Below, in pieces: positions 7,217 through 18,931 of a DNA stretch of 36,861 nt. A program made the translations under genes and the position numbers. The DNA comes from an uncultured Bdellovibrionales bacterium (GTDB lineage Bacteria > Bdellovibrionota > Bdellovibrionia > Bdellovibrionales > UBA1609), in assembly GCA_937936325.1 (NCBI GenBank), contig CALGWV010000039.1:1-36861 (forward strand), in the 5' to 3' direction. Numbering within the stretch: the stretch's first letter is position 1; the number at the start of each line of letters is the position of its first letter. The notes beneath the pieces were generated by a model. It made no database searches. It saw only the letters and a program-made list of their open reading frames with translations, and was not told the origin of the DNA.

Positions 7217-8992
7217 GTGGCTTTGAATTTATTTAAATCTTTAAAGATGACATTTTTTGTCACTTTCTTTTTTTGCATGACACTCTTATTGAGCACTGGG
7301 TGTCAAGATAAAACAACTGACCTTCCTTTCACTTTCACACCAAAAAATATTCCAATTAGCCTTCAAGGAGAATGGGAAAGTAGTGGTGGAGATATTGTTG
7401 AATGTGAAGAAAAAAATTATATTCTTGATTATTGGGAGTACTATGTGGCTCCCAATAATCATACCCCCAAAAATATTACAGACACTCCTCCTCCTGCAAC
7501 ACTCAAAGAGTTTTTTGAAAGAAGATACTACGAAGCTCATGAGTTTGAATTAGATAAGAGCTTAGAGTCAAAAAGTGCGAGCAAGACCCTTGATGAAGTT
7601 CTACTGCGCATTTGGACAGCGTCACCACTTTTTGGCGATCAGGTTTACGAAGCCTATAAACAATCTAAATTCTCAACTTGGAAGCCCAGCAATAAACTTA
7701 TAAATATTGATGACAGCACCCCAAGGTTTGAAATCCCAGGCACTTGCGCCCTCACTCAACTCGTCAATCGATACTCTGTAGACAATGCAGAAAAAGTTCC
7801 AGAACTTGAGTACCATTACAACCCCATATTATTTGATCCCTTACCTGAAGTGCAAAAAGCAATGATGGTTCTACATGAAGTTTTTTATTTAATCGCAAAA
7901 AAAGACACTCATACCAATTCAAATCATATTAGAAAATTAGTCGCTTTCGCGTTTTCAAAAGAATTTACTCTCTACTCAGGAAAATTAAAAAATATAGACA
8001 CAGATCAAAAATCTTCTCGAAATCTAAATCCTCTAAATGTTAAGCAAAATCTGTTTTTAGTTTTCAAACAAATCTTATCCTATCCTTTTGGAGATTATGT
8101 AAAATTTTTTATTAGAGAAAATAATTTTTTAAAAAGTGAAAACCCTTATTATGACTCACTCATCTCTTTAATGAAAAAATTGCGCTATGCTAAATCTCAA
8201 TGCATAAAATCTGGTAAAACCCCTAACGAATGTCTTCATTTTGTCCACAACTCCAGAGCCATCCAATATAGCCTTAGTCCTTCAGAATCCCTGGTTTATG
8301 CTGCCAGATTTATATTTGATATGGGATTTAGCGGCCAAGATTTTTCATCAGAATACTTATCCAGCATCAATAAAGCATTACTAAAAAAATCTAGTTTTGA
8401 CAAAAGAACTTATCTTAAAAAACTCTGCTTTTTTATCAATTCAAAAGACAGAAAAGATCATCTTATTCTTGGTGAATCTGCAAAACAACAATGTCGACTT
8501 GAAGACATCGAAGTGACATTGATTAAGGAGAGACCCTCTTGGACTGAATTTAACTGCCATTCCTCAGACGATACTGTAAGGATCATTTATAAAGAGCCAA
8601 AAACAGAAACTGCTCAAACTCGAGTTAGATTAATTTCCGAGCACATTAATGGCACTCCTATATTTCCCGCCTACACTGGAAATTTCAACATTCAAAACCT
8701 AAAAGAGAGAAAAATCACTAGAGATTTTATTTTCGACTCTAAAGAATTTGATGGAAGCTTAGATGTAGTTTTGAATCTCACAGGAGTAGAAGACCCAGAA
8801 CAAAAAAACCTTATTTATCATTTTTTAAAGAAATCAAATTTGGACCTTGGGATCACATTAGAAAATAAAAAAATCAGTCGTCTTAAAGCTCGAAAACTTC
8901 TTGAAAATCAATCTCCAATTCAAATTAGTGTTCCAATGGACAAGTGCACAATCCGAGAAGCCAAAGCCCAGCCCTCTCTCTTTTTTTATTAA
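7217..8992 (+). CDS. Predicted lipoprotein of unknown function, 591 residues
   Basis: The N-terminus is a lipoprotein signal: basic start, hydrophobic run of Phe/Leu, then LSTGC with the lipid-carrying Cys at residue 29. The mature protein is largely hydrophilic with scattered Cys and a final Cys-containing segment (MDKCTIREAK, about 574-583). No catalytic motif or known domain is evident. The start is uncertain: GTG 7217 is overlapped by the only purine-rich site (GAGGTGG), while ATG 7247 gives a compact 19-residue signal peptide before the lipobox Cys. It probably shares a transcript with the secreted protein just upstream and faces the small lipoprotein gene ending at 9055. Confidence 0.7.
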   Translation: MALNLFKSLKMTFFVTFFFCMTLLLSTGCQDKTTDLPFTFTPKNIPISLQGEWESSGGDIVECEEKNYILDYWEYYVAPNNHTPKNITDTPPPATLKEFFERRYYEAHEFELDKSLESKSASKTLDEVLLRIWTASPLFGDQVYEAYKQSKFSTWKPSNKLINIDDSTPRFEIPGTCALTQLVNRYSVDNAEKVPELEYHYNPILFDPLPEVQKAMMVLHEVFYLIAKKDTHTNSNHIRKLVAFAFSKEFTLYSGKLKNIDTDQKSSRNLNPLNVKQNLFLVFKQILSYPFGDYVKFFIRENNFLKSENPYYDSLISLMKKLRYAKSQCIKSGKTPNECLHFVHNSRAIQYSLSPSESLVYAARFIFDMGFSGQDFSSEYLSSINKALLKKSSFDKRTYLKKLCFFINSKDRKDHLILGESAKQQCRLEDIEVTLIKERPSWTEFNCHSSDDTVRIIYKEPKTETAQTRVRLISEHINGTPIFPAYTGNFNIQNLKERKITRDFIFDSKEFDGSLDVVLNLTGVEDPEQKNLIYHFLKKSNLDLGITLENKKISRLKARKLLENQSPIQISVPMDKCTIREAKAQPSLFFY

Positions 8993-9054: not shown

Positions 9055-9441
9055 CTAATTATTTAAAATATAGGGGTCTTTTTTTAAATCTTTAAGACTG
9101 CCTTCGTGCTCAGCATAAATTACAAAAGCTGGAACTAAGCCCTCACCATTAATTATTCTAGTTTTTTCAGCCGTTCTAAAATTTAAATAATATGTGCTGG
9201 ATTTTGTTTTGAATACGGAGGCCACTTCACGCTGTGGTTTACTTTCAGTATACTCTTGGCCAATACTCGATTTGTTTTGGCTCCATAAAACCACATTTGT
9301 ATTTGTGTCGTAAATAGACTCTATATTGTCTTTTTTAAGTTCCTCTATGTCATTCCAAACTAATGATTGGTCCTCAAGCTGAAGCCCTCTGTGTGCACAG
9401 CTTACTGACATAAGACAAATAACTACAAGTAAAAACTTCAT
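9055..9441 (-). CDS. Small predicted lipoprotein, last gene of the giant-lipoprotein operon
   Basis: 128 residues. The signal peptide MKFLLVVICLMSVSC carries a lipobox-like VSC with the lipidated Cys at residue 15. The mature part is hydrophilic, Glu/Lys/Asn-rich, with one further hydrophobic patch (LVPAFVIYA, about 101-109) and no recognised domain. Its ATG overlaps the TGA of the OmpA-domain gene in the four-base ATGA arrangement, so it is translationally coupled to it. Co-expression with an OmpA-type protein and the giant lipoprotein suggests a periplasmic or outer-membrane accessory role (inference). Confidence 0.7.
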   Translation of the reverse strand: MKFLLVVICLMSVSCAHRGLQLEDQSLVWNDIEELKKDNIESIYDTNTNVVLWSQNKSSIGQEYTESKPQREVASVFKTKSSTYYLNFRTAEKTRIINGEGLVPAFVIYAEHEGSLKDLKKDPYILNN

Positions 9442-10949
9442 AATGCTGCTCCTATCACTTCATTAGTGCACATCTCAACACCCTGTTTTGGTTTTACTAG
9501 AATTTCGACTCTTCTGTTTATCTTATCAGCTAAAGCCGAATCATCATCTGATAACGGTATTGTCTCACCTGCAACTTGAGTTTGAATTGGTAAATCTGCT
9601 ATCTCAGAATTTGATAGAAGCTCTGCAACTTTATTTAATCTGCGTGTGGCTAAGTTTAGGTTATACTCATTAGACCCTGGTTTAGAAGTGTGTCCAGATA
9701 ATATTAAACTCTCAACTATATCCCTGCGAGAGCTTAAAACCTGAATAAGTTGATTTATTTGTGCATGTTCAGATTTTAACTCCGCACGATCATGCATAAA
9801 CCTTATGACTACAGCATTAGATTCTCCGAAAACTGGAGGCTCACATTCTTTTTGGCTTTGCACTCCTTTTAAGACTTGAACGGCTCCTTTTTTATTGACT
9901 CTTGTTATTGGTATTTTGTGTGGCTCAAAATGAATATTGTATTTTATACCTAGACTTCCACGAAAATCATTTCCGTCATCGGTAGTTAAAAGGTTTCCAA
10001 CACCTACTCCCGCAAAAGCATGGAGATGTCGGCTTAAAGCCCCGCTAGCTCCAATAAACAATTCATTTGGATCTATATCATTTTCAAAAAAAGGCTGCGA
10101 CCATTGACGTAAGTATTCTAAATTTATTCCCCAAGATCTTTGGATTGGAATATAGAAACCTAACGCCGCTGTTAACCGGTTACGAAGATCTATAGCAATT
10201 TGATTTGGTGTAGATCCATTTTGGTAATCCACAGCTTTATCAGCATATCTATAACCTACATTTCCAACCACTTGAAAATACTTAAAAATGTACTCATAAA
10301 CAAGCTTGAGACCAAACCCAAATGACTCATCACTGAGAGCCGTAAGCTGACTTCCTGAAACTCCAAATGGAGCTTGGTTAGAAACCGTAAAACTGCCAGC
10401 GTATGTTGGTATAAAGAACTGAGGGATAACGGCTAATCCTGATTTTTCTGTACTATGCAACCTAAGCTTTAGGCTCAGCACTATATCTGAAAATCCACTA
10501 TGGCCCAAATTAGAGTCATCATTAAAAAACGAGTATCCCGTATTCACACCTGCTAAGAGCCAGGGCTTCATAAACCAACTCAAACCAAGATGTATTGTCT
10601 GCATGTCATCAATGATAGTATACAATTGCTGACTGTTGGCCGCATCTTTAGCTACCAGGGGCTCATCAACAAAAGAGTAGCCTAAATGAAATAATAAATC
10701 ATAGTCATTGTAAACATGACTTGTAGCTGTCCTTGCATCTTCAATTTTTTCAAAGGTTAAAGAATGACTTCTATGAAACTGCTGATAATTTACTGCAAAA
10801 GCATTTGTAGATAAAAAAAATAATATAAATAAAACTAGTTTATAGTTTTTCAACTGCTTTAAAAAGAAACTTTTAAGCAATTGAAAAAGTTTATCTTTAA
10901 GTAGTGTTAATAAAAGTCTAAACCTGCCTGATGTGTCATTATATTTCAT
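9438..10949 (-). CDS. Outer membrane protein: predicted beta-barrel with C-terminal OmpA peptidoglycan-binding domain
   Basis: 503 residues from ATG 10949, which has AGGA five bases upstream; ATG 10955 overlaps that ribosome site and is unlikely. A long cytoplasmic-looking leader (about 36 residues, rich in Lys/Leu) precedes the hydrophobic signal core YKLVLFILFFLS and an AFA cleavage site near residue 52. Residues about 65-345 show alternating aromatic/hydrophobic strands typical of a transmembrane barrel. The C-terminus (about 378-488) is an OmpA/MotB domain: FMHDRAELK, LILSGHTSKPGSNEYN with the Asp-equivalent position changed to Ser, and the closing NRRVEI whose Arg binds meso-diaminopimelate in the family. 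It would anchor the outer membrane to the wall. It lies 20 bases after the giant lipoprotein gene and overlaps the next by four. Confidence 0.87.
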   Translation of the reverse strand: MKYNDTSGRFRLLLTLLKDKLFQLLKSFFLKQLKNYKLVLFILFFLSTNAFAVNYQQFHRSHSLTFEKIEDARTATSHVYNDYDLLFHLGYSFVDEPLVAKDAANSQQLYTIIDDMQTIHLGLSWFMKPWLLAGVNTGYSFFNDDSNLGHSGFSDIVLSLKLRLHSTEKSGLAVIPQFFIPTYAGSFTVSNQAPFGVSGSQLTALSDESFGFGLKLVYEYIFKYFQVVGNVGYRYADKAVDYQNGSTPNQIAIDLRNRLTAALGFYIPIQRSWGINLEYLRQWSQPFFENDIDPNELFIGASGALSRHLHAFAGVGVGNLLTTDDGNDFRGSLGIKYNIHFEPHKIPITRVNKKGAVQVLKGVQSQKECEPPVFGESNAVVIRFMHDRAELKSEHAQINQLIQVLSSRRDIVESLILSGHTSKPGSNEYNLNLATRRLNKVAELLSNSEIADLPIQTQVAGETIPLSDDDSALADKINRRVEILVKPKQGVEMCTNEVIGAAL

Positions 10950-10969
10950 AATCATCCTAATTATTTATT

Positions 10970-13900
10970 TTAAAAACTGACATAATCTAAAAATATGACA
11001 TTTGGAGTGTTTCCGGAATGTCGTCCGGTACAATAACCACGGTCATTTGCATCAACAACACAGACGTCATGTCTATAAGTCACTAAACCCACAGCAGGAA
11101 CAGCTGCGGCTCCACCCCACTGAACTGGCGTCGTTTCATATCCTATATACCCAGCAGTCGTATTATCCACCCCAAGAGCAGAGTCATTGACACTGACATT
11201 ATGCCCCCAGCAATATACTTTTCCACCTAAAGTTGGATTTTCAAGAGCACAACTAATATCCCAACCTACATCAACAAGAACGATATCGCTTCCTACCGGT
11301 AAAGCTTGAACTGCTGTACCCGTTGAGCTTACTGTTGTTCCATTACCCAGCTGACCGAAACTGTTATTTCCCCAACACCATACAGATCCATCATCTCTGC
11401 TCGCACAGGTATGTCTATAACCACCACTCAAACTGAGAACGTTATCAAGTGGGTTCCCAGAAGTATCTGTCACCAGAGTAGGCACTGGCCCGAAACCCTG
11501 CCCCCAACAATATACAGATGTACTAACAAGAGCACACAAGGCTGAAGTACTTACATTTGATTGTCGCTCCACTTTGGTTGGAGTTCCAATCTCCGCTAGG
11601 CTCGATCCTGGAAGACCACTCGGCGCAACTACTTTTGTATAAACTCGTGAGTCTGGGCCTGCTATACCATTTCCTAATTGCCCTAATGCATTTTCACCAG
11701 AGCAATAAGTATCTCCAGTTGAAGCTGTATAACAATGTACATTTCCGGCAGCAAAAGCTCGAATGGCATTTTTAATTTTCTTGCTTGGGTCTTCTGGATC
11801 TATGGGCTGAACTGGTGTTCGAATCACACCTGGATAAATGCTCCCAGTTCCCACTTCTCCTGAAGAGTTTTGTCCCCAGGCCCAAAGTTCACCATTGTCT
11901 AAGATGGCCATACCATCTGTATGATCCATTGTAATTTGACTGACAATCCTATCATCGAAATTCCAACCTTCATGCAGGTCAAAAGAAACGTAACCTGGAG
12001 CTGTATATCCGGAAACAAAATCTGATCGCCCCAAAGCTTGATGAGCCCCTAACCCCCAGGCAATCATTTTACCTGTTTCTGTTATTGCAAAAGAATGAGA
12101 TTCTGTAGGGAGTACAGAATATACATTTCCTAAAGGATAAATTGACGTCATCTCAATTAGAGCACCACGTGCTTGCCCTGAAGCTCCATGTAAAACTCCA
12201 CTGTTTGCACGTGACCAACAAAATATTCTGTCTGCATCGCCTTTAGCACATAGACCCACAGATCCATCTTCTGAATATCTACCTGCAGTTTTACCTAACA
12301 TTTGTTTGGCTTTAGTAAGAACTTCTACTTCAGCCTGACAAGATCCGACAAGTGTTGTTGAAGATATGTCTATAGGCACTACAGCGTCTTGGTAAGTTCC
12401 ATCATAAAGACTCGATCCAAATAAGCCTCCATCATAATTAAGTGGCACCCTTAGCTGGTCTTCTGTACCGTCCAATGTGACAGTGTAAGTATCTCCCCCT
12501 GGTGCTCCAGCGGTAAAACCTTTTTCGTTTATTGTGACATCCACAGTGACCCCTGCGACAGAGTCTTTTATTGGAAGAAACACTGCTCCAGGAAAAGGAG
12601 CGACAGATGTTGAGGCTAAACTGACTCCATCTTCAAAATCACCAAAAGCTAAAAGAGTCGCTCCACAATTAAACCTGACGGGTAGTTGCGAAGTTTCCGA
12701 GTCACTAGCCACTTGCCCTAACGAATCTTCAATCGAAGCAACAATAACAGGGCTTCCCCCATTTGGACCTTGTCCATTAAAGACCACTGTCCCACAACTG
12801 AAACTCCCATTGTTGCACGCACATTCAACACTGTTTGGCGACATATCAGATGAGCTCAACTTAACGGTCCCGTCTACACCGCAGCTCCCAGAAAGTGTTG
12901 TAGGCTCTCCCTTATCAATTGCAGGTATAGCCGCAAGGTCAATAAATGGTGCTATTATTGCAGCAGTTTGTGCAGTCGATGTGATACCTGATGTCGGCTC
13001 TGTATTAGTAGCAGAAATTAAAGGCTGGCTCCCATTTAAACCTTTACCATCAAAAGTGGCAGGCCCACACGAGTATGTTCCCAAAGTACAATCGCAGCTT
13101 ACGCTACCTTCAACCATATCTGGTGAAGCAACAGTAATAACTCCTGCCCCGTCAGGGTCACAAGTTCCTGTAATTGTTTGAGGTGACATAGAATCAATAA
13201 GGGCAATGGGATCAATTGAAATGTCAGGGCCTATCAAGCTGTCAGTATCTGAAGCTGTTTTACTAGTTTGTGGGTCTGAAATAATAGCGGTTACCTGTGG
13301 GTTGGACCCATTCGGTCCTTCACCACTAAAGGCAACGCTTCCACAACTATAAGTTCCCCCAATAACACAAGGACAAGTTTGTGGAGAGGGAGTCATGTCT
13401 GGGCTCGTAAGTGTTACAGACCCACCAACTGGAAAACAATTTCCAGTGAGATCTATTGGCTCTCCAAAACTAATCACAGCAGGTAAAGTTTGTTCGATAG
13501 AAGGCAGTATAATCCCCACCTCTGAGTCTGAAGTGCTTGCTGAGCCGGCCAGCAAGCTAGCATTAAACATAGGTTCAGTTCCATTAATCCCAGAACCAGA
13601 ACTCACCACAGGGCCACAACTAAAATTACCTTGAGTATCACAGGGGCAACTCACTGATGAGGTCTCGAAGTCTGACGGAGTGGTGAAACTTTCAACTGTT
13701 ACCGTTGAGCCGGTTGGAAAACATGTTCCAGTTAAAAGAAACTCATCTCCAGCCTCAATGTTTTTAGGAGCATTTAAATCAATTGCCGGTATCTGGGTCT
13801 GAGCTGTATCTGACGCTGTATTTCCTAAGCTGTCAGTTATAGATGCAATCACATTTGGAACTGCACCGCCAGGGCCCGATCCACTAAAAATAACTGGTGA

Positions 13901-16900
13901 GGCAGAGCAATCGATAGCTCCGTTTACACAGTTACATTGAATCAAATTTGGACTCATATCAGGCGATGACAAACTCACTGCTGCGCCATCAGGAGTACAA
14001 CTTCCTCCACTTAAGTCTACGGCTGTACCAGGGTTTACAAAAGGATCTAAAGCAAGATCAACACTGGGTAAAAGAGTTTTAGTATCTGTATCTGTTGCTA
14101 TAACCCCTAGATTATTAGATAGAACTGTTTCAAATGTTGGATCTCCACTACCGATATAGCTAACCTCACCACAATTAAAAATTCCTTGGAAACAATCACA
14201 TGTGACTGGGCTTGGAGACATATTTACAGATGTTACCGTCACGCCATTTGGACTTTGAGCCTCTGGACTGCATTCACCTGAAATCACAATAGGCAAACTC
14301 GTATCAATAGGACTTGGAATTATGAGGTCTACTGTAGGAGTTCCAACAGTTGTTGCAACTGGACCGTTTGTGGCGCCACCAGGATCTGTAATGACTGCGG
14401 TAAAAGTAGGCGTTGTGTTTGCACACGAAACCACTTCCACGTCACAACCATAGAAACCCGTATGACAATCACAAGTGACTGGACTCGTCGCTAAAACACC
14501 TGGGTCTGCAGAAACACGAACAACTCCAATTCCATCTGGGAAACAAGTTCCATAAACTGTTTGGTCTCCGACAACACAAGCCTCAGCCACATTTATAGTT
14601 ACATCAGGACTTAAGCTGACAGGCTCTGTGTCTGTAGAGGTTTGTCCGGTTGCATCTGTTATTGTTCCGAGTATATCAAACATATTTACACTTGGGTCTA
14701 CTGCTGGAAAACTTACTGATCCACAACTGAAGGCATTACCAGGTTGGCACTGACATGAGATAAGACTTGGCACCATAAGCTCATCTGTAATTTCAATATT
14801 TGAACCGACAGGTGTGCAAGTTCCAGTGATTGGAATGACATCATCCTTTGTGATTGGCCCTGCAATCGGCGTCACATCAATGCTTGGCAATAAGACTGTG
14901 GAGTCTTTATCAGAGGCTAATGGATTCACTCCATCATTTACAAAAGCAGAAATGATAGGGAAATTTGAATTCGAGCCTGTGCCGTCTACAAGAACAGGGC
15001 CACAACTAAAAGCCCCCCCTGAACAAGGGCATGTAATAGGTGGCGCCGGAGACACGATATCACGACTCACGATTTCAATATTGGCCCCTTCTGAAACACA
15101 AGCTCCCATAACTAAAAAGGGTTCAGGCATTCCAGAAGCATCGAGTGGCACAGCAGCTGGTAACTCTAATTTTACTTCTGGAAGAATATTTCCAGTACCT
15201 GAATCAGCTGCTGTTCTTCCTGTCCCATCATCAATGATTCCACTAATTTCAGGTTGTGGCCCACCTGGCCCCGAACCATCAAAACTCACTAACCCACAAC
15301 TAAAGCTTCCGCCAAAACAGGAGCAGTTGACCATATTCGGATTCATATCCGGAGAGCTTAAATCAACACTTCCTCCATCTGGAATACAGCTCCCTGTAAG
15401 GTAGACTGGAACTCCAGGTTCAAAATTTTCTGGTATGAAAATATTTATAGCAGGCACAAGTCCTGAGTTTTGATCTGAAGCTACATTTGCATTTGTATCT
15501 GTAATTACAGCCGTAACTAGTGGCGATGAACCATTTGGTCCTTCTCCATCAAACGAAACACTCCCGCAACTAAATGTTCCTCCATTACATGGACATGTTA
15601 TTAAAGAGGGGATCATATCTAATGAATTCAGCTCAATAGTTCCATCAGAACCACAGGTTCCAGTTAAGTTGATGCTGTCCCCTGGAGAAAAGCTTGGGAA
15701 AGGATCTAGCTCCACAGTAGGTAATACTATGGCTTCTACGTTGGCCACCTGAGTTTCACTTGTAAGAGGATCAGTAATTTCTCCTATAAATTGCGGATCG
15801 TTTCCATTAGGACCGGCCCCATCAACGACAACAGGTGAAGCTGAACAATCCATCAGTCCAGAAACACAGTCACAAGTGATTGAACTTGGAGCCATGTCTA
15901 TAGAATCGACCACGATGTTTCCTACACCATCTGGTTCACATGTCCCCTTAAGAGTGATCGGCGTTTTGGGGTCAATGTTACCTGGAGAGTCTATGTTTAA
16001 GTTAGGACCGCCTAAAACGTCAGAGTCATACCCTGATAAGCCCGTCGCAGAATCAGTATTTTGTGCCACAATATGAGGGTGTGACCCATTTGGACCTTCT
16101 CCATCAAAGTGTGTTGGACCACAATTATAGACACCACCAGAGCAAGGACAAACTATAGGTGTAGGACTCATGTCTTCAGAATTCAGCGTCACTTCTGTCC
16201 CGTCTGGCCCACATGTTCCTGTTAAAGTTACGGGAGAAGAATCAAGGGGTAAATCTACGGACAAATCAATGTCTACTTCAGGAACTATAGCCGTCTGACC
16301 TATATCTGTTACAGTTGAAACACCACTTGGGTCCGTCAGTTCAGCTAAAAATACAGGTTGGGACTCACTGCTTCCAGATCCGTCAGAGCTTATTGGTCCA
16401 CATTCAAAACTACCTTCATAGCTACAAACACAAGCAACAGGTTGTGGCGTGAAATCGGAAGGACTCCCTCCAGATTGAATAATCACATCGGAACCACCTG
16501 GAGCGCAAATTCCCGTTAATTTATAGTTCTCTCCAGAAAGTACTTTTTGTGGAGTATTTAACTTTATAAAAGGTAAAGAAGTCGTATCTAAATCAGTAGC
16601 TGTATTCCCTTCAGGGTCAGTAATGTTTGCCACCACAGAAGGGTAAGCGCCATTAGGCCCTTCAGAAGTAAAAGTGACAGGTGATGCAGAACAATCTGTA
16701 ACCCCACTTACACAATCACAGCTCACAGATTGAGGCAGCATATCAGGAGAGGCGAAGTTTACGTTGTCTACCCCATTAGGAAAACAAGCCACTCCAGATA
16801 AAACTATGGGTTCATTGGGAGTGATCACATTAGGCAGAACAAGATTTATTGATGGTGCTAATGTCAAGGTATCCACATCAGGAGCTGAAGCCACTCCCAA

Positions 16901-18931
16901 ATTATCTAATAAAACTGTCGTAAAAGTAGGATCACCAGAGCCGGTATAACTCACTAACCCACAATCAAATTGGCCCTGTACACATGGGCAAGAAACTGGT
17001 GAGGGGAGCATATTTGGCGAACTCACACTCACTCCATTGGGCTCGACTGCATCGGGGGAGCAGCTTCCAACCAAAGAGAGAGCTTGAGAAGGGTCAAGTG
17101 GACCTGATAAACTAAGGTCCACTTGAGGTGTCCCAACAACAGCTTGATCAGAAGCTGTATTTGCTCCATCTGTTATTGTTGCTGTTAAATCAGGGGATCC
17201 ACCACCAGAACCACTACAGGTTAAATTAACATTACAGCTGTATTCTGAGCCTACGCAATCACAACTCACTGGTTCAGGGTCAATATCCCCACTGCCTGGC
17301 GACGTCGTGCCTATCGAAATATTCCCTGAAGCATTTGGAAAACATACTCCAGAAATTACTTGTGTTCCAGGTGTGCAGCTTTGTGGGACATTTATAGATA
17401 CATTAGGGTTTACAACAAAAGTTTCTGTAACAGGAGGTAGAGTCTGCCCTTTTGGATCTTTTATCTCAGCACTAAACTCTGGAGATGACCCACCGGGCCC
17501 AACTCCTGTGACAGTAAAAGCTCCACAATTATAAACGCCATCAACGCACGCACAATCAGCAGACTTAGGCTCAGTATCAACAGAGCTTACAGTCACTATA
17601 GAACCGTTTGCAGAACAGGATCCAGAAACTACAACAGGCTCCTTAAGTTCAATGGATGTGGCAGGAAGAGTTATTGTAAGGGTCGGGGGCAAACTTGTTG
17701 TACTTGTTTGAAGGATTGCGGGACTGACCCCATCATCTAAAGTCGCCATAATTACAGGGAAATTTCCACCAGGACCTGAAGCATCGAAATCTACATCAGC
17801 CGGACATGAAATGGATCCAGAAACACAATCGCAAAGAAGAGGTAAACTCTGGGTTGGAGTCGTCGATGTGATATCATCTGATTCAATTGAAATGGTCCCC
17901 ACACCATCAGTACTACAACTTCCAGTGACGGCAATAGCAACCCCTGGGGTATGGATATCAGGTAAGCTTAATTTTAATCTAGGTTGAATGATGCCCGTGT
18001 CGTTATCTACTGCTGCATCACCATCAGAGGTTGTGAGCGTGGAAACAAACTCAGGCTCTGGCCCCTCTGCAGCCACTAGTGAAACAAGACCACAATCAAA
18101 GCTGCCATTAATACAATCGCAAACGGCTGGACTTGAACTTAATGAACGACTCTCAATAGTCACAGCCCCAACACCATCTGGACTACATGTTCCAGATAAG
18201 TACATGGGGTCACTCACCCTTAACTCGTCAGGAAGGATGAGATCAATTGCTGGAATTACTGGCGTCGCTTCATCAGATGCTGCTTCCCCAGAACTATCAA
18301 TAATTTCTCCTTCTATTAGAGGCGAATTATTTGGCTGAGAAGGGTCCGGAGTAAAATCAACAAGTATAGCAGAACAATCGATCACCCCCAAAGTAAAAGG
18401 AGAAGCGGAACCACCAGAACAATCACACGTAACTGAACTCGGAGTCATGTTACTACTTGAGATCTCCACATTCCCAGTACCTATGGGATAGCATTCACCA
18501 CCGCTTAAATCATTGCCTGGCCCTGGATCTACATTATCCCCAACATCAATAACAACCACGGGATTAATATGAGGTGTTTCGGTATTTGAAACTTGCTGGT
18601 TTCCGTTAGGTGAAGAGAGTTGAACTAAAACTATTGGATCTTCAGCGTTGGGTCCATAACCAGAAAATACTCCAGTTCCACAATCAAATTCTCCACTAAC
18701 ACAAGGACATGTTACGCTGGCTGGAACCATATCATCAGAACTAAGTTCTACACTTGAACCACTAGGCACACAGGAGCCTGTGAGAGGCATAGTAATGCCC
18801 GGCTCTAAACCACTTAATGAGGTTAAGTTGACTTTAAGAGGTTCAGTGGTCAAATGAAAGTTTGCACCACAAGATGTAAATAAAATTACTAAACTTAAAC
18901 GACAAGCAATTCTTAAGAAAACAGTAAACAT
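10970..18931 (-). CDS. Giant lipoprotein: 22 cysteine-rich repeats plus RCC1-like C-terminal domain
   Basis: 2653 residues. The N-terminus (hydrophobic to LFTSC) is a lipoprotein signal with Cys at residue 21; Phe at -3 is unusual. Residues about 40-2084 hold 22 units of 90-98 residues. A unit reads: LTGSC-x-PDG, SSxDMxPxxVxCxC, GxFxCG, DGxGPNGS, then IxD and a final PxIxLxLP strand; each has four conserved Cys. The first Cys of the units are at 54, 147, 249, 339, 439, 530, 624, 716, 809, 907, 998, 1093, 1182, 1278, 1372, 1463, 1554, 1645, 1737, 1832, 1924 and 2017. A non-repeat linker (about 2085-2205) leads to RCC1-like repeats (about 2215-2653) with WGQNSSGEVGTG, CSGENALGQLGNG, CWGNNSFGQLGNG and CWGHN. 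This is an exported, probably disulfide-stabilised rod ending in a propeller. Function is unknown; adhesion or cell-envelope scaffolding is inference. AGG lies ten bases before ATG 18931. Confidence 0.9.
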   Translation of the reverse strand: MFTVFLRIACRLSLVILFTSCGANFHLTTEPLKVNLTSLSGLEPGITMPLTGSCVPSGSSVELSSDDMVPASVTCPCVSGEFDCGTGVFSGYGPNAEDPIVLVQLSSPNGNQQVSNTETPHINPVVVIDVGDNVDPGPGNDLSGGECYPIGTGNVEISSSNMTPSSVTCDCSGGSASPFTLGVIDCSAILVDFTPDPSQPNNSPLIEGEIIDSSGEAASDEATPVIPAIDLILPDELRVSDPMYLSGTCSPDGVGAVTIESRSLSSSPAVCDCINGSFDCGLVSLVAAEGPEPEFVSTLTTSDGDAAVDNDTGIIQPRLKLSLPDIHTPGVAIAVTGSCSTDGVGTISIESDDITSTTPTQSLPLLCDCVSGSISCPADVDFDASGPGGNFPVIMATLDDGVSPAILQTSTTSLPPTLTITLPATSIELKEPVVVSGSCSANGSIVTVSSVDTEPKSADCACVDGVYNCGAFTVTGVGPGGSSPEFSAEIKDPKGQTLPPVTETFVVNPNVSINVPQSCTPGTQVISGVCFPNASGNISIGTTSPGSGDIDPEPVSCDCVGSEYSCNVNLTCSGSGGGSPDLTATITDGANTASDQAVVGTPQVDLSLSGPLDPSQALSLVGSCSPDAVEPNGVSVSSPNMLPSPVSCPCVQGQFDCGLVSYTGSGDPTFTTVLLDNLGVASAPDVDTLTLAPSINLVLPNVITPNEPIVLSGVACFPNGVDNVNFASPDMLPQSVSCDCVSGVTDCSASPVTFTSEGPNGAYPSVVANITDPEGNTATDLDTTSLPFIKLNTPQKVLSGENYKLTGICAPGGSDVIIQSGGSPSDFTPQPVACVCSYEGSFECGPISSDGSGSSESQPVFLAELTDPSGVSTVTDIGQTAIVPEVDIDLSVDLPLDSSPVTLTGTCGPDGTEVTLNSEDMSPTPIVCPCSGGVYNCGPTHFDGEGPNGSHPHIVAQNTDSATGLSGYDSDVLGGPNLNIDSPGNIDPKTPITLKGTCEPDGVGNIVVDSIDMAPSSITCDCVSGLMDCSASPVVVDGAGPNGNDPQFIGEITDPLTSETQVANVEAIVLPTVELDPFPSFSPGDSINLTGTCGSDGTIELNSLDMIPSLITCPCNGGTFSCGSVSFDGEGPNGSSPLVTAVITDTNANVASDQNSGLVPAINIFIPENFEPGVPVYLTGSCIPDGGSVDLSSPDMNPNMVNCSCFGGSFSCGLVSFDGSGPGGPQPEISGIIDDGTGRTAADSGTGNILPEVKLELPAAVPLDASGMPEPFLVMGACVSEGANIEIVSRDIVSPAPPITCPCSGGAFSCGPVLVDGTGSNSNFPIISAFVNDGVNPLASDKDSTVLLPSIDVTPIAGPITKDDVIPITGTCTPVGSNIEITDELMVPSLISCQCQPGNAFSCGSVSFPAVDPSVNMFDILGTITDATGQTSTDTEPVSLSPDVTINVAEACVVGDQTVYGTCFPDGIGVVRVSADPGVLATSPVTCDCHTGFYGCDVEVVSCANTTPTFTAVITDPGGATNGPVATTVGTPTVDLIIPSPIDTSLPIVISGECSPEAQSPNGVTVTSVNMSPSPVTCDCFQGIFNCGEVSYIGSGDPTFETVLSNNLGVIATDTDTKTLLPSVDLALDPFVNPGTAVDLSGGSCTPDGAAVSLSSPDMSPNLIQCNCVNGAIDCSASPVIFSGSGPGGAVPNVIASITDSLGNTASDTAQTQIPAIDLNAPKNIEAGDEFLLTGTCFPTGSTVTVESFTTPSDFETSSVSCPCDTQGNFSCGPVVSSGSGINGTEPMFNASLLAGSASTSDSEVGIILPSIEQTLPAVISFGEPIDLTGNCFPVGGSVTLTSPDMTPSPQTCPCVIGGTYSCGSVAFSGEGPNGSNPQVTAIISDPQTSKTASDTDSLIGPDISIDPIALIDSMSPQTITGTCDPDGAGVITVASPDMVEGSVSCDCTLGTYSCGPATFDGKGLNGSQPLISATNTEPTSGITSTAQTAAIIAPFIDLAAIPAIDKGEPTTLSGSCGVDGTVKLSSSDMSPNSVECACNNGSFSCGTVVFNGQGPNGGSPVIVASIEDSLGQVASDSETSQLPVRFNCGATLLAFGDFEDGVSLASTSVAPFPGAVFLPIKDSVAGVTVDVTINEKGFTAGAPGGDTYTVTLDGTEDQLRVPLNYDGGLFGSSLYDGTYQDAVVPIDISSTTLVGSCQAEVEVLTKAKQMLGKTAGRYSEDGSVGLCAKGDADRIFCWSRANSGVLHGASGQARGALIEMTSIYPLGNVYSVLPTESHSFAITETGKMIAWGLGAHQALGRSDFVSGYTAPGYVSFDLHEGWNFDDRIVSQITMDHTDGMAILDNGELWAWGQNSSGEVGTGSIYPGVIRTPVQPIDPEDPSKKIKNAIRAFAAGNVHCYTASTGDTYCSGENALGQLGNGIAGPDSRVYTKVVAPSGLPGSSLAEIGTPTKVERQSNVSTSALCALVSTSVYCWGQGFGPVPTLVTDTSGNPLDNVLSLSGGYRHTCASRDDGSVWCWGNNSFGQLGNGTTVSSTGTAVQALPVGSDIVLVDVGWDISCALENPTLGGKVYCWGHNVSVNDSALGVDNTTAGYIGYETTPVQWGGAAAVPAVGLVTYRHDVCVVDANDRGYCTGRHSGNTPNVIFLDYVSF
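12680..18814 (-). repeat. 22 tandem coding repeats of about 280 bp, with a ten-unit block duplication
   Basis: The repeats encode the rod of the giant lipoprotein. Units average 93.5 residues. Units 13-22 (about 12680-15448) resemble units 3-12 (about 15449-18238) in register: paired first cysteines are 924-939 residues apart in every case checked. Idiosyncrasies are shared by matched pairs, such as extra Cys in 6 and 16, a four-residue insert with SGDPTF in 7 and 17, DCSASPV in 8 and 18, PSDF in 9 and 19, and NFP with DDGV/NDGV in 4 and 14. Copies have diverged widely, so the duplication is old. Confidence 0.85.

Follow-up and report, generated by a model that had tools for sequence, protein, structure and literature searches.

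A large mosaic lipoprotein of Bdellovibrionota in a three-gene outer-membrane cassette: a candidate surface-display system

The routes by which lipoproteins reach the bacterial surface are known for few lineages, among them those that rely on Slam, an outer-membrane protein dedicated to lipoproteins of the surface (PMC5449769, PMC9090332), and the Bacteroidetes, where a short motif near the lipidated cysteine (the ‘LES’) directs lipoproteins to the surface (PMC5080379). Four further systems invite comparison: FapF, a transporter of functional amyloid in Pseudomonas that carries FapC through the outer membrane (PMC5137466); RcsF, described as threaded through barrels (PMC4942254), for which E. 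coli OmpA has been reported not to be the path to the surface (PMC7553776); TraA/TraB, in which a surface protein with cysteine-rich tandem repeats shares an operon with a partner composed of an N-terminal part of ~400 aa and an OmpA tail (PMC3325183); and the MAT fibre proteins of Bdellovibrio bacteriovorus, in which a conserved fibre part bears exchanged tips (PMC10769870).

The locus described here lies in a window of 36,861 nucleotides (the whole stretch of DNA analysed) from an uncultured Bdellovibrionales bacterium, and consists of a large lipoprotein gene, the first of a tight three-gene cassette, followed by the gene for an outer-membrane barrel and then by that for a small lipoprotein. 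Slam offers the parallel of a dedicated outer-membrane protein, but the cassette barrel, as modelled, most resembles FapF and ends in an OmpA tail. FapF is indeed the best fold match of the barrel (in a model of moderate quality), and in both systems a barrel and a secreted (here putatively secreted) cargo are encoded together; however, FapF has a helical or disordered region before its barrel (PMC5137466), whereas the model of the cassette barrel has no helix before it and an OmpA tail after it, and the FapF cargo is an amyloid, whereas that of the cassette is a lipoprotein, with lipoprotein genes rather than fap-type genes as neighbours. The large lipoprotein and its partner resemble TraA/TraB in their cysteine-rich repeats, OmpA tail and operon, but the large lipoprotein has no PA14 domain, and carries a predicted N-terminal lipid anchor in place of a C-terminal sorting tag; since it lacks any NCBIfam match, it also lacks TIGR04201 and MYXO-CTERM. 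The TraB model (NF033763) reaches only 37.5 bits on the barrel, against a cut-off of 700, and does so over the OmpA part only. The LES reads K-(D/E)2 or Q-A-(D/E)2, whereas the signature of the cassette lipoproteins contains an invariant Asn and His and is linked to a barrel. Membership of the cassette in the LES or TraAB systems was considered, and is ruled out by the signature residues and the NCBIfam results. MAT fibres differ in being trimeric beta-helices, and RCC1, OmpA and lipoprotein are absent from the main text of their description (PMC10769870). A search of open full texts found nothing joining Bdellovibrio, RCC1 and lipoprotein, nor any account of a cassette with this signature; the three-gene cassette with its signature has apparently not been described before.

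The large mosaic lipoprotein

The large gene (10970-18931; this and all features below lie on the minus strand unless otherwise stated) is one uninterrupted open reading frame with an ATG start, encoding 2653 aa with 108 cysteines. Its N-terminus (MFTVFLRIACRLSLVILFTSC) comprises a hydrophobic signal and then a lipobox-like FTSC, the signal peptide and lipobox (...LFTSC) being assigned to residues 1-21 (18869-18931) from the sequence and an alignment with relatives; the Phe at -3 is atypical, and the relatives have a comparable ...[SAG]C. Cys21 is the predicted lipidation site, and the +2 residue is Gly, which under the E. coli sorting rule destines the lipoprotein for the outer membrane. The lipoprotein signal that an earlier note had read from this DNA is thus borne out by an outer-membrane-type signal and lipobox-like motif, and the remaining layout that it described (a 2653-residue frame with lipobox, 22 units, a linker and C-terminal RCC1 repeats) is confirmed throughout. 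Beyond that note go the ten-unit periodicity and the extra cysteine pair described below, the N-terminal signature and the two linked downstream genes. Promoter and terminator scans gave signals that did not clearly exceed those of shuffled sequence.

Residues 30-2084 (12680-18844) form an array of 22 four-cysteine units, recognised by motif count, profile, AlphaFold and Foldseek. The protein contains exactly 22 C-x-C motifs, each within a unit of the form C-x20-28-C-x-C-x6-14-C; the units average ~93 residues with a mean pairwise identity of 33%, and a profile made from them recovers 22/22 at E<=1e-16. Because the closest pair is only 58% identical at the DNA level, assembly is unlikely to have produced the length of the array, whether by collapse or by expansion; the array is old. 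Units ten positions apart are 40% identical, compared with 33% overall (permutation p=0.0064 over lags 1-16), with 62% amino acid identity between U7 and U17 and 49% between U8 and U18, and units U6 and U16 have in common an extra pair of cysteines. This likeness at lag 10 and the shared cysteine pair make approximately units 3-12 (15461-18259) and 13-22 (12680-15460) look like the two copies of an ancient tandem duplication, whose exact breakpoint is uncertain.

Outside the RCC1 region the protein has no Pfam match at E<=1 and the units have none in NCBIfam; no curated Big/Ig model matched them either. An AlphaFold model of units 11-13, computed from an alignment with eight other non-overlapping unit triplets, is all-beta with a pLDDT of 90.5. 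Foldseek places an ice-binding bacterial adhesin first, with its tandem Ig-like extender domains, and then titin, neural Ig chains and phage Ig/BIG2 proteins, so that the matches are overwhelmingly Ig-like chains. The global TM values of these matches stay low, at 0.2-0.4, probably owing to differing angles between the domains, and the Ig-like assignment rests on the E-values and the kind of proteins matched. As modelled, the units form a chain of Ig-like beta-sandwiches, and the rod of repeated domains suggested beforehand is supported by this three-unit prediction and its structural matches. The four-cysteine Ig-like unit would represent a new building block, expandable from 0 to 22 copies.

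The array is followed by a linker domain of ~130 aa (12287-12679), which is Ig-like, has a conserved cysteine pair, and is homologous in four RCC1-bearing relatives. The C-terminal head (residues 2216-2653; 10973-12286), a predicted beta-propeller with conserved cysteine pairs spaced 9-13, is matched in Pfam by RCC1_2 (E=1.9e-17, 63 bits; cut-off 22), by RCC1 (E=5.5e-16, 59.3 bits; cut-off 21.7) and, under its curated cut-off, by WD40_RLD (E=1.5e-34). The head also matches the PDB sequence of UVR8 (E=2e-12, aligned over ~250 residues), and profile and PDB searches agree in this respect with the RCC1-like C-terminus first proposed. In three RCC1-bearing relatives the linker and head are 34-36% identical to those of the large lipoprotein, with most cysteine pairs kept.

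The earlier note knew of no described family that pairs such a stalk with an RCC1 head; in that form the claim is not supported: lipobox proteins of other Bdellovibrionales, at loci L158 and L162, combine RCC1 with domains of the Big_1, Big_5, Big_12 and fn3 types. Since lipoproteins with Ig-like domains and RCC1 occur elsewhere in the order, the pairing alone is not new. The L158 and L162 proteins resemble the large lipoprotein in their lipobox, Ig-like domains and RCC1 repeats with cysteine pairs, but differ from it in that their Ig-like domains are of known Pfam types and in having neither four-cysteine units nor an N-x-H at the lipobox. Elsewhere in the order, RCC1-rich lipoprotein-like proteins were noted at L158 (2687-10426), L159 (2214-6194) and L162 (3710-7270), two of them with Ig-like domains.

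VKOR- and DsbA-type oxidases were found in the host genome, and DsbB was not. Matches to VKOR and DsbA are near neighbours in 424-aa frames of a single contig (G000:C129:31510-32661), which probably represent a VKOR-DsbA fusion, and there is another DsbA match besides. These enzymes could make the disulfides of the large lipoprotein, which is compatible with the ‘disulfide-braced’ rod that had been envisaged.

Partner genes, signature and distribution of the cassette

The barrel gene (9438-10955; 505 aa) begins 14 bp downstream of the large gene, and encodes an outer-membrane beta-barrel with a C-terminal OmpA peptidoglycan-binding domain (residues 386-480; 9516-9800; Pfam PF00691, E=2.9e-9, 37.6 bits, cut-off 27.2). 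Its AlphaFold model is of moderate quality (pLDDT 76, pTM 0.59); the top PDB matches in Foldseek are FapF structures (5o68/5o65/5o67, TM by target 0.59-0.71), further matches are to FadL, TodX, CymD and COG4313 channels, and the tail matches the OmpA domains of OprF/Pal. The FapF-like fold is also that of the FadL/COG4313 small-molecule channels, and so is no proof of polypeptide transport; at the Pfam level, no sequence relation to FapF was found outside the OmpA domain. No phage relatives of the barrel were found. The third gene (9055-9441), overlapping the barrel gene by 4 bp, encodes a lipoprotein of 128 aa (SCAHRG...) that belongs to a C[AST]xRG family and has no Pfam match. Small lipoproteins of the cassettes range from 93 to over 200 aa (L036, 1056-1652; L038, 10713-11291), and that of L036 matches LysM below the threshold (E 0.0022).

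Directly at the mature N-terminus of the large cassette lipoproteins stands a short signature, C-x(1-3)-N-x-H-[ILV], which in the window reads CGANFHL (residues 21-27; 18851-18871). Its Asn and His are invariant in 15/15 aligned sequences, and a pattern search found them in 24 non-identical proteins, in addition to L032 with a longer spacer; at cysteines beyond residue 80 in the same ORF sets the pattern occurred in 0/1562 cases. In the host genome, a 24-residue profile of the signature matched just two proteins convincingly (E 6e-11 and 6e-9; the next, 0.08), and both lie in cassettes, adjoining barrels. Across 141 genomes of the order it gave 14 matches at E<=3e-6, all in six genomes with a barrel at E<1e-120; 12 lie beside a barrel or barrel fragment and 2 at contig ends. 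This co-occurrence of signature and barrel (p=3e-9, a value that ignores relatedness) is partly circular, because the profile was made mostly from neighbours of barrels. Support free of that circularity comes, at the level of sequence, from loci that were found by the barrel alone and proved to have the signature. A lipobox-based enrichment test (Fisher p=0.047) was set aside as contaminated by signature-fetched loci and contig ends.

Of the searches with the barrel only, which used no information on lipoproteins, one yielded 20 close barrel loci (with one further, L073, cut at a contig end), and another came upon the same handful of genomes in which a separate search with the large protein had found four-cysteine proteins. 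A signature lipoprotein lies within a few genes of the barrel in 15 of these 20 loci, and a small C[AST]xRG lipoprotein nearby in 17; barrel, small lipoprotein and large signature lipoprotein together make up the repeated cassette. Those homologous loci that have a named origin are from Bdellovibrionales, Bacteriovoracaceae, a single Oligoflexales MAG and a MAG carrying the label Rickettsiales (which may be wrong). More distantly, in two genomes of another family, barrels matched at E ~1e-38 adjoin an SCSENAHLT lipoprotein. Barrels left out of the family (distant L057-L059, L090 and L091, and the weak L156) have no signature partner. In the Bacteriovoracaceae, L078, L088 and L089 have a barrel and small lipoprotein but lack signature cargo, which is present at L082, where the surroundings are similar.

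The host genome itself contains two close barrels, only 36% identical, each paired with one of its two signature lipoproteins. The second host cassette (locus L038; G000:C46 9311-12967), which runs off its contig, consists of a barrel, a small lipoprotein and a DUF11-array lipoprotein bearing CGENHHIT and one four-cysteine unit. A third, weak barrel homologue of the host (L156; G000:C127:10418-10807, E 2.6e-9, 485 aa) has no signature partner.

Exchange of cargo

What the signature lipoproteins carry behind the signature varies from locus to locus. RCC1 cargo is found in the large lipoprotein of the window and at L032, L034 and L035; DUF11 arrays at L038, L036, L083, L084, L085 and L087; ALK-type glycine-rich cargo in the second gene of L035 and at L054 and L080; GLUG at L053 and, by resemblance to it, at L055; and Big_9 at L149, while the cargo of L056, L082 and L152 contains no known domain. 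These classes were assigned by alignment or by eye, rather than by Pfam, for L034, the first gene of L035, L036, L055, L083 and L085. The large lipoprotein has 22 four-cysteine units and L032 has 8; many others have one or a few, and the RCC1 proteins at L034 and L035 have 0. The barrels of L034 and L054 are sisters, 75% identical (support 100/99), and their cargos are RCC1 and glycine-rich, respectively. On the barrel tree, in which the position of the window's own barrel is unsure, DUF11 cargo forms one clade and RCC1 cargo requires three changes.

As judged from sequence, the cassettes have a conserved carrier with exchangeable cargo, and the RCC1 head is not the defining part of the signature-lipoprotein family: lipoproteins related to the large one, and adjacent to the same barrel, have DUF11, glycine-rich or GLUG cargo in its place. 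The idea of 22 units and RCC1 as one fixed architecture was accordingly rejected, as relatives keep the signature and the barrel and not the units or the head. One relative (G038; contigs C76, C166, C255, C101, C189 and C92) encodes six or more signature lipoproteins whose cargos differ; barrels that are complete or nearly so accompany three of them, and fragments of barrels, at the ends of contigs, accompany two.

Possible roles of the cassette

In the reading preferred here, the large lipoprotein would be a Sec substrate that receives its lipid on Cys21, and its Ig-like and propeller domains would fold with disulfides supplied by DsbA/VKOR. The partner barrel, a putative pore of the FapF/COG4313 kind with an OmpA tail that binds peptidoglycan, would recognise the C-G-x-N-x-H-h residues that follow the lipid-bearing cysteine, perhaps assisted by the small lipoprotein, and would tie the lipoprotein to the wall and pass it, or hold it, through the outer membrane. 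The rod of 22 units might then serve as a long spacer off the cell, with the RCC1 propeller at its tip to bind proteins or glycans. We infer contact between barrel and lipoprotein, export, a surface location and binding by the tip; that the signature acts as a signal is argued by analogy. That the large lipoprotein is the cargo of a three-gene outer-membrane cassette, anchored or exported by the barrel and with its tip displayed, seems an evenly balanced proposition. The wider proposal, of a previously undescribed display (and possibly export) system of Bdellovibrionota in which a barrel reads a tag and shows interchangeable disulfide-rich lipoprotein cargos on the surface, is more tentative, and its chances are judged somewhat below even. 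Against the preferred reading stand the size of the disulfide-rich domains, which once folded are too big for a narrow single-chain barrel, the four close Bacteriovoracaceae barrel loci with a small lipoprotein and no signature cargo nearby, and the finding that E. coli OmpA is not the surface carrier of RcsF (PMC7553776). If the proposal is true, the combination of tag and barrel with swappable tips would be a concrete candidate for surface display in a phylum with predatory bacteria among its members, with a motif of two residues (N and H) open to mutation. A role in prey attachment, as the earlier note suggested, would be conjecture, as would a predatory habit of this MAG lineage.

The first alternative, unlikely though the strongest of the rivals, is a complex that serves for anchoring only: from within the periplasm the signature would bind the OmpA tail or the barrel, while the lipoprotein would surface by a general route or stay in the periplasm as a spacer. 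Against this, 22 Ig-like units in line, when extended, would greatly exceed the width of the periplasm, and variable, adhesin-like tips fit contact with the outside. The OmpA tail and the weak LysM match of one small lipoprotein nonetheless point toward the wall, and E. coli RcsF does bind the periplasmic tail of OmpA (PMC7553776).

Two other readings are improbable, and equally so. The FadL, TodX, CymD and COG4313 channels among the Foldseek matches would suit a nutrient channel with the lipoprotein as its capture subunit at the mouth, in the manner of SusC/SusD, but diverse cargo beside closely related barrels is hard to square with one substrate, and no metabolic genes occur in those cassettes that were read. 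A variable, cysteine-rich surface protein working with its OmpA partner in kin recognition or outer-membrane exchange would follow the general layout of myxobacterial TraA/TraB, with cysteine-rich repeats and an OmpA-domain partner in one operon (PMC3325183); against it stand the lack of any NCBIfam match to the large protein and a TraB model that reaches the barrel only over its OmpA domain.

Least credible, and very improbable, is that this is an ordinary giant adhesin beside an ompA gene, with linkage and signature inherited and no functional coupling: membership confined to one phylum or nearly so, with most loci in related MAGs, would allow it, but the linkage persists down to barrels 34-40% identical, gene order and orientation vary (L032, L037 and L056 have the large gene divergent from the barrel gene, others have the two co-directional), and the cargo is swapped while signature and barrel stay.

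On the plus strand of the window (7217-8992), an ORF without a Pfam match encodes a further lipoprotein-like product of 591 aa (LLLSTGCQDKTTD).
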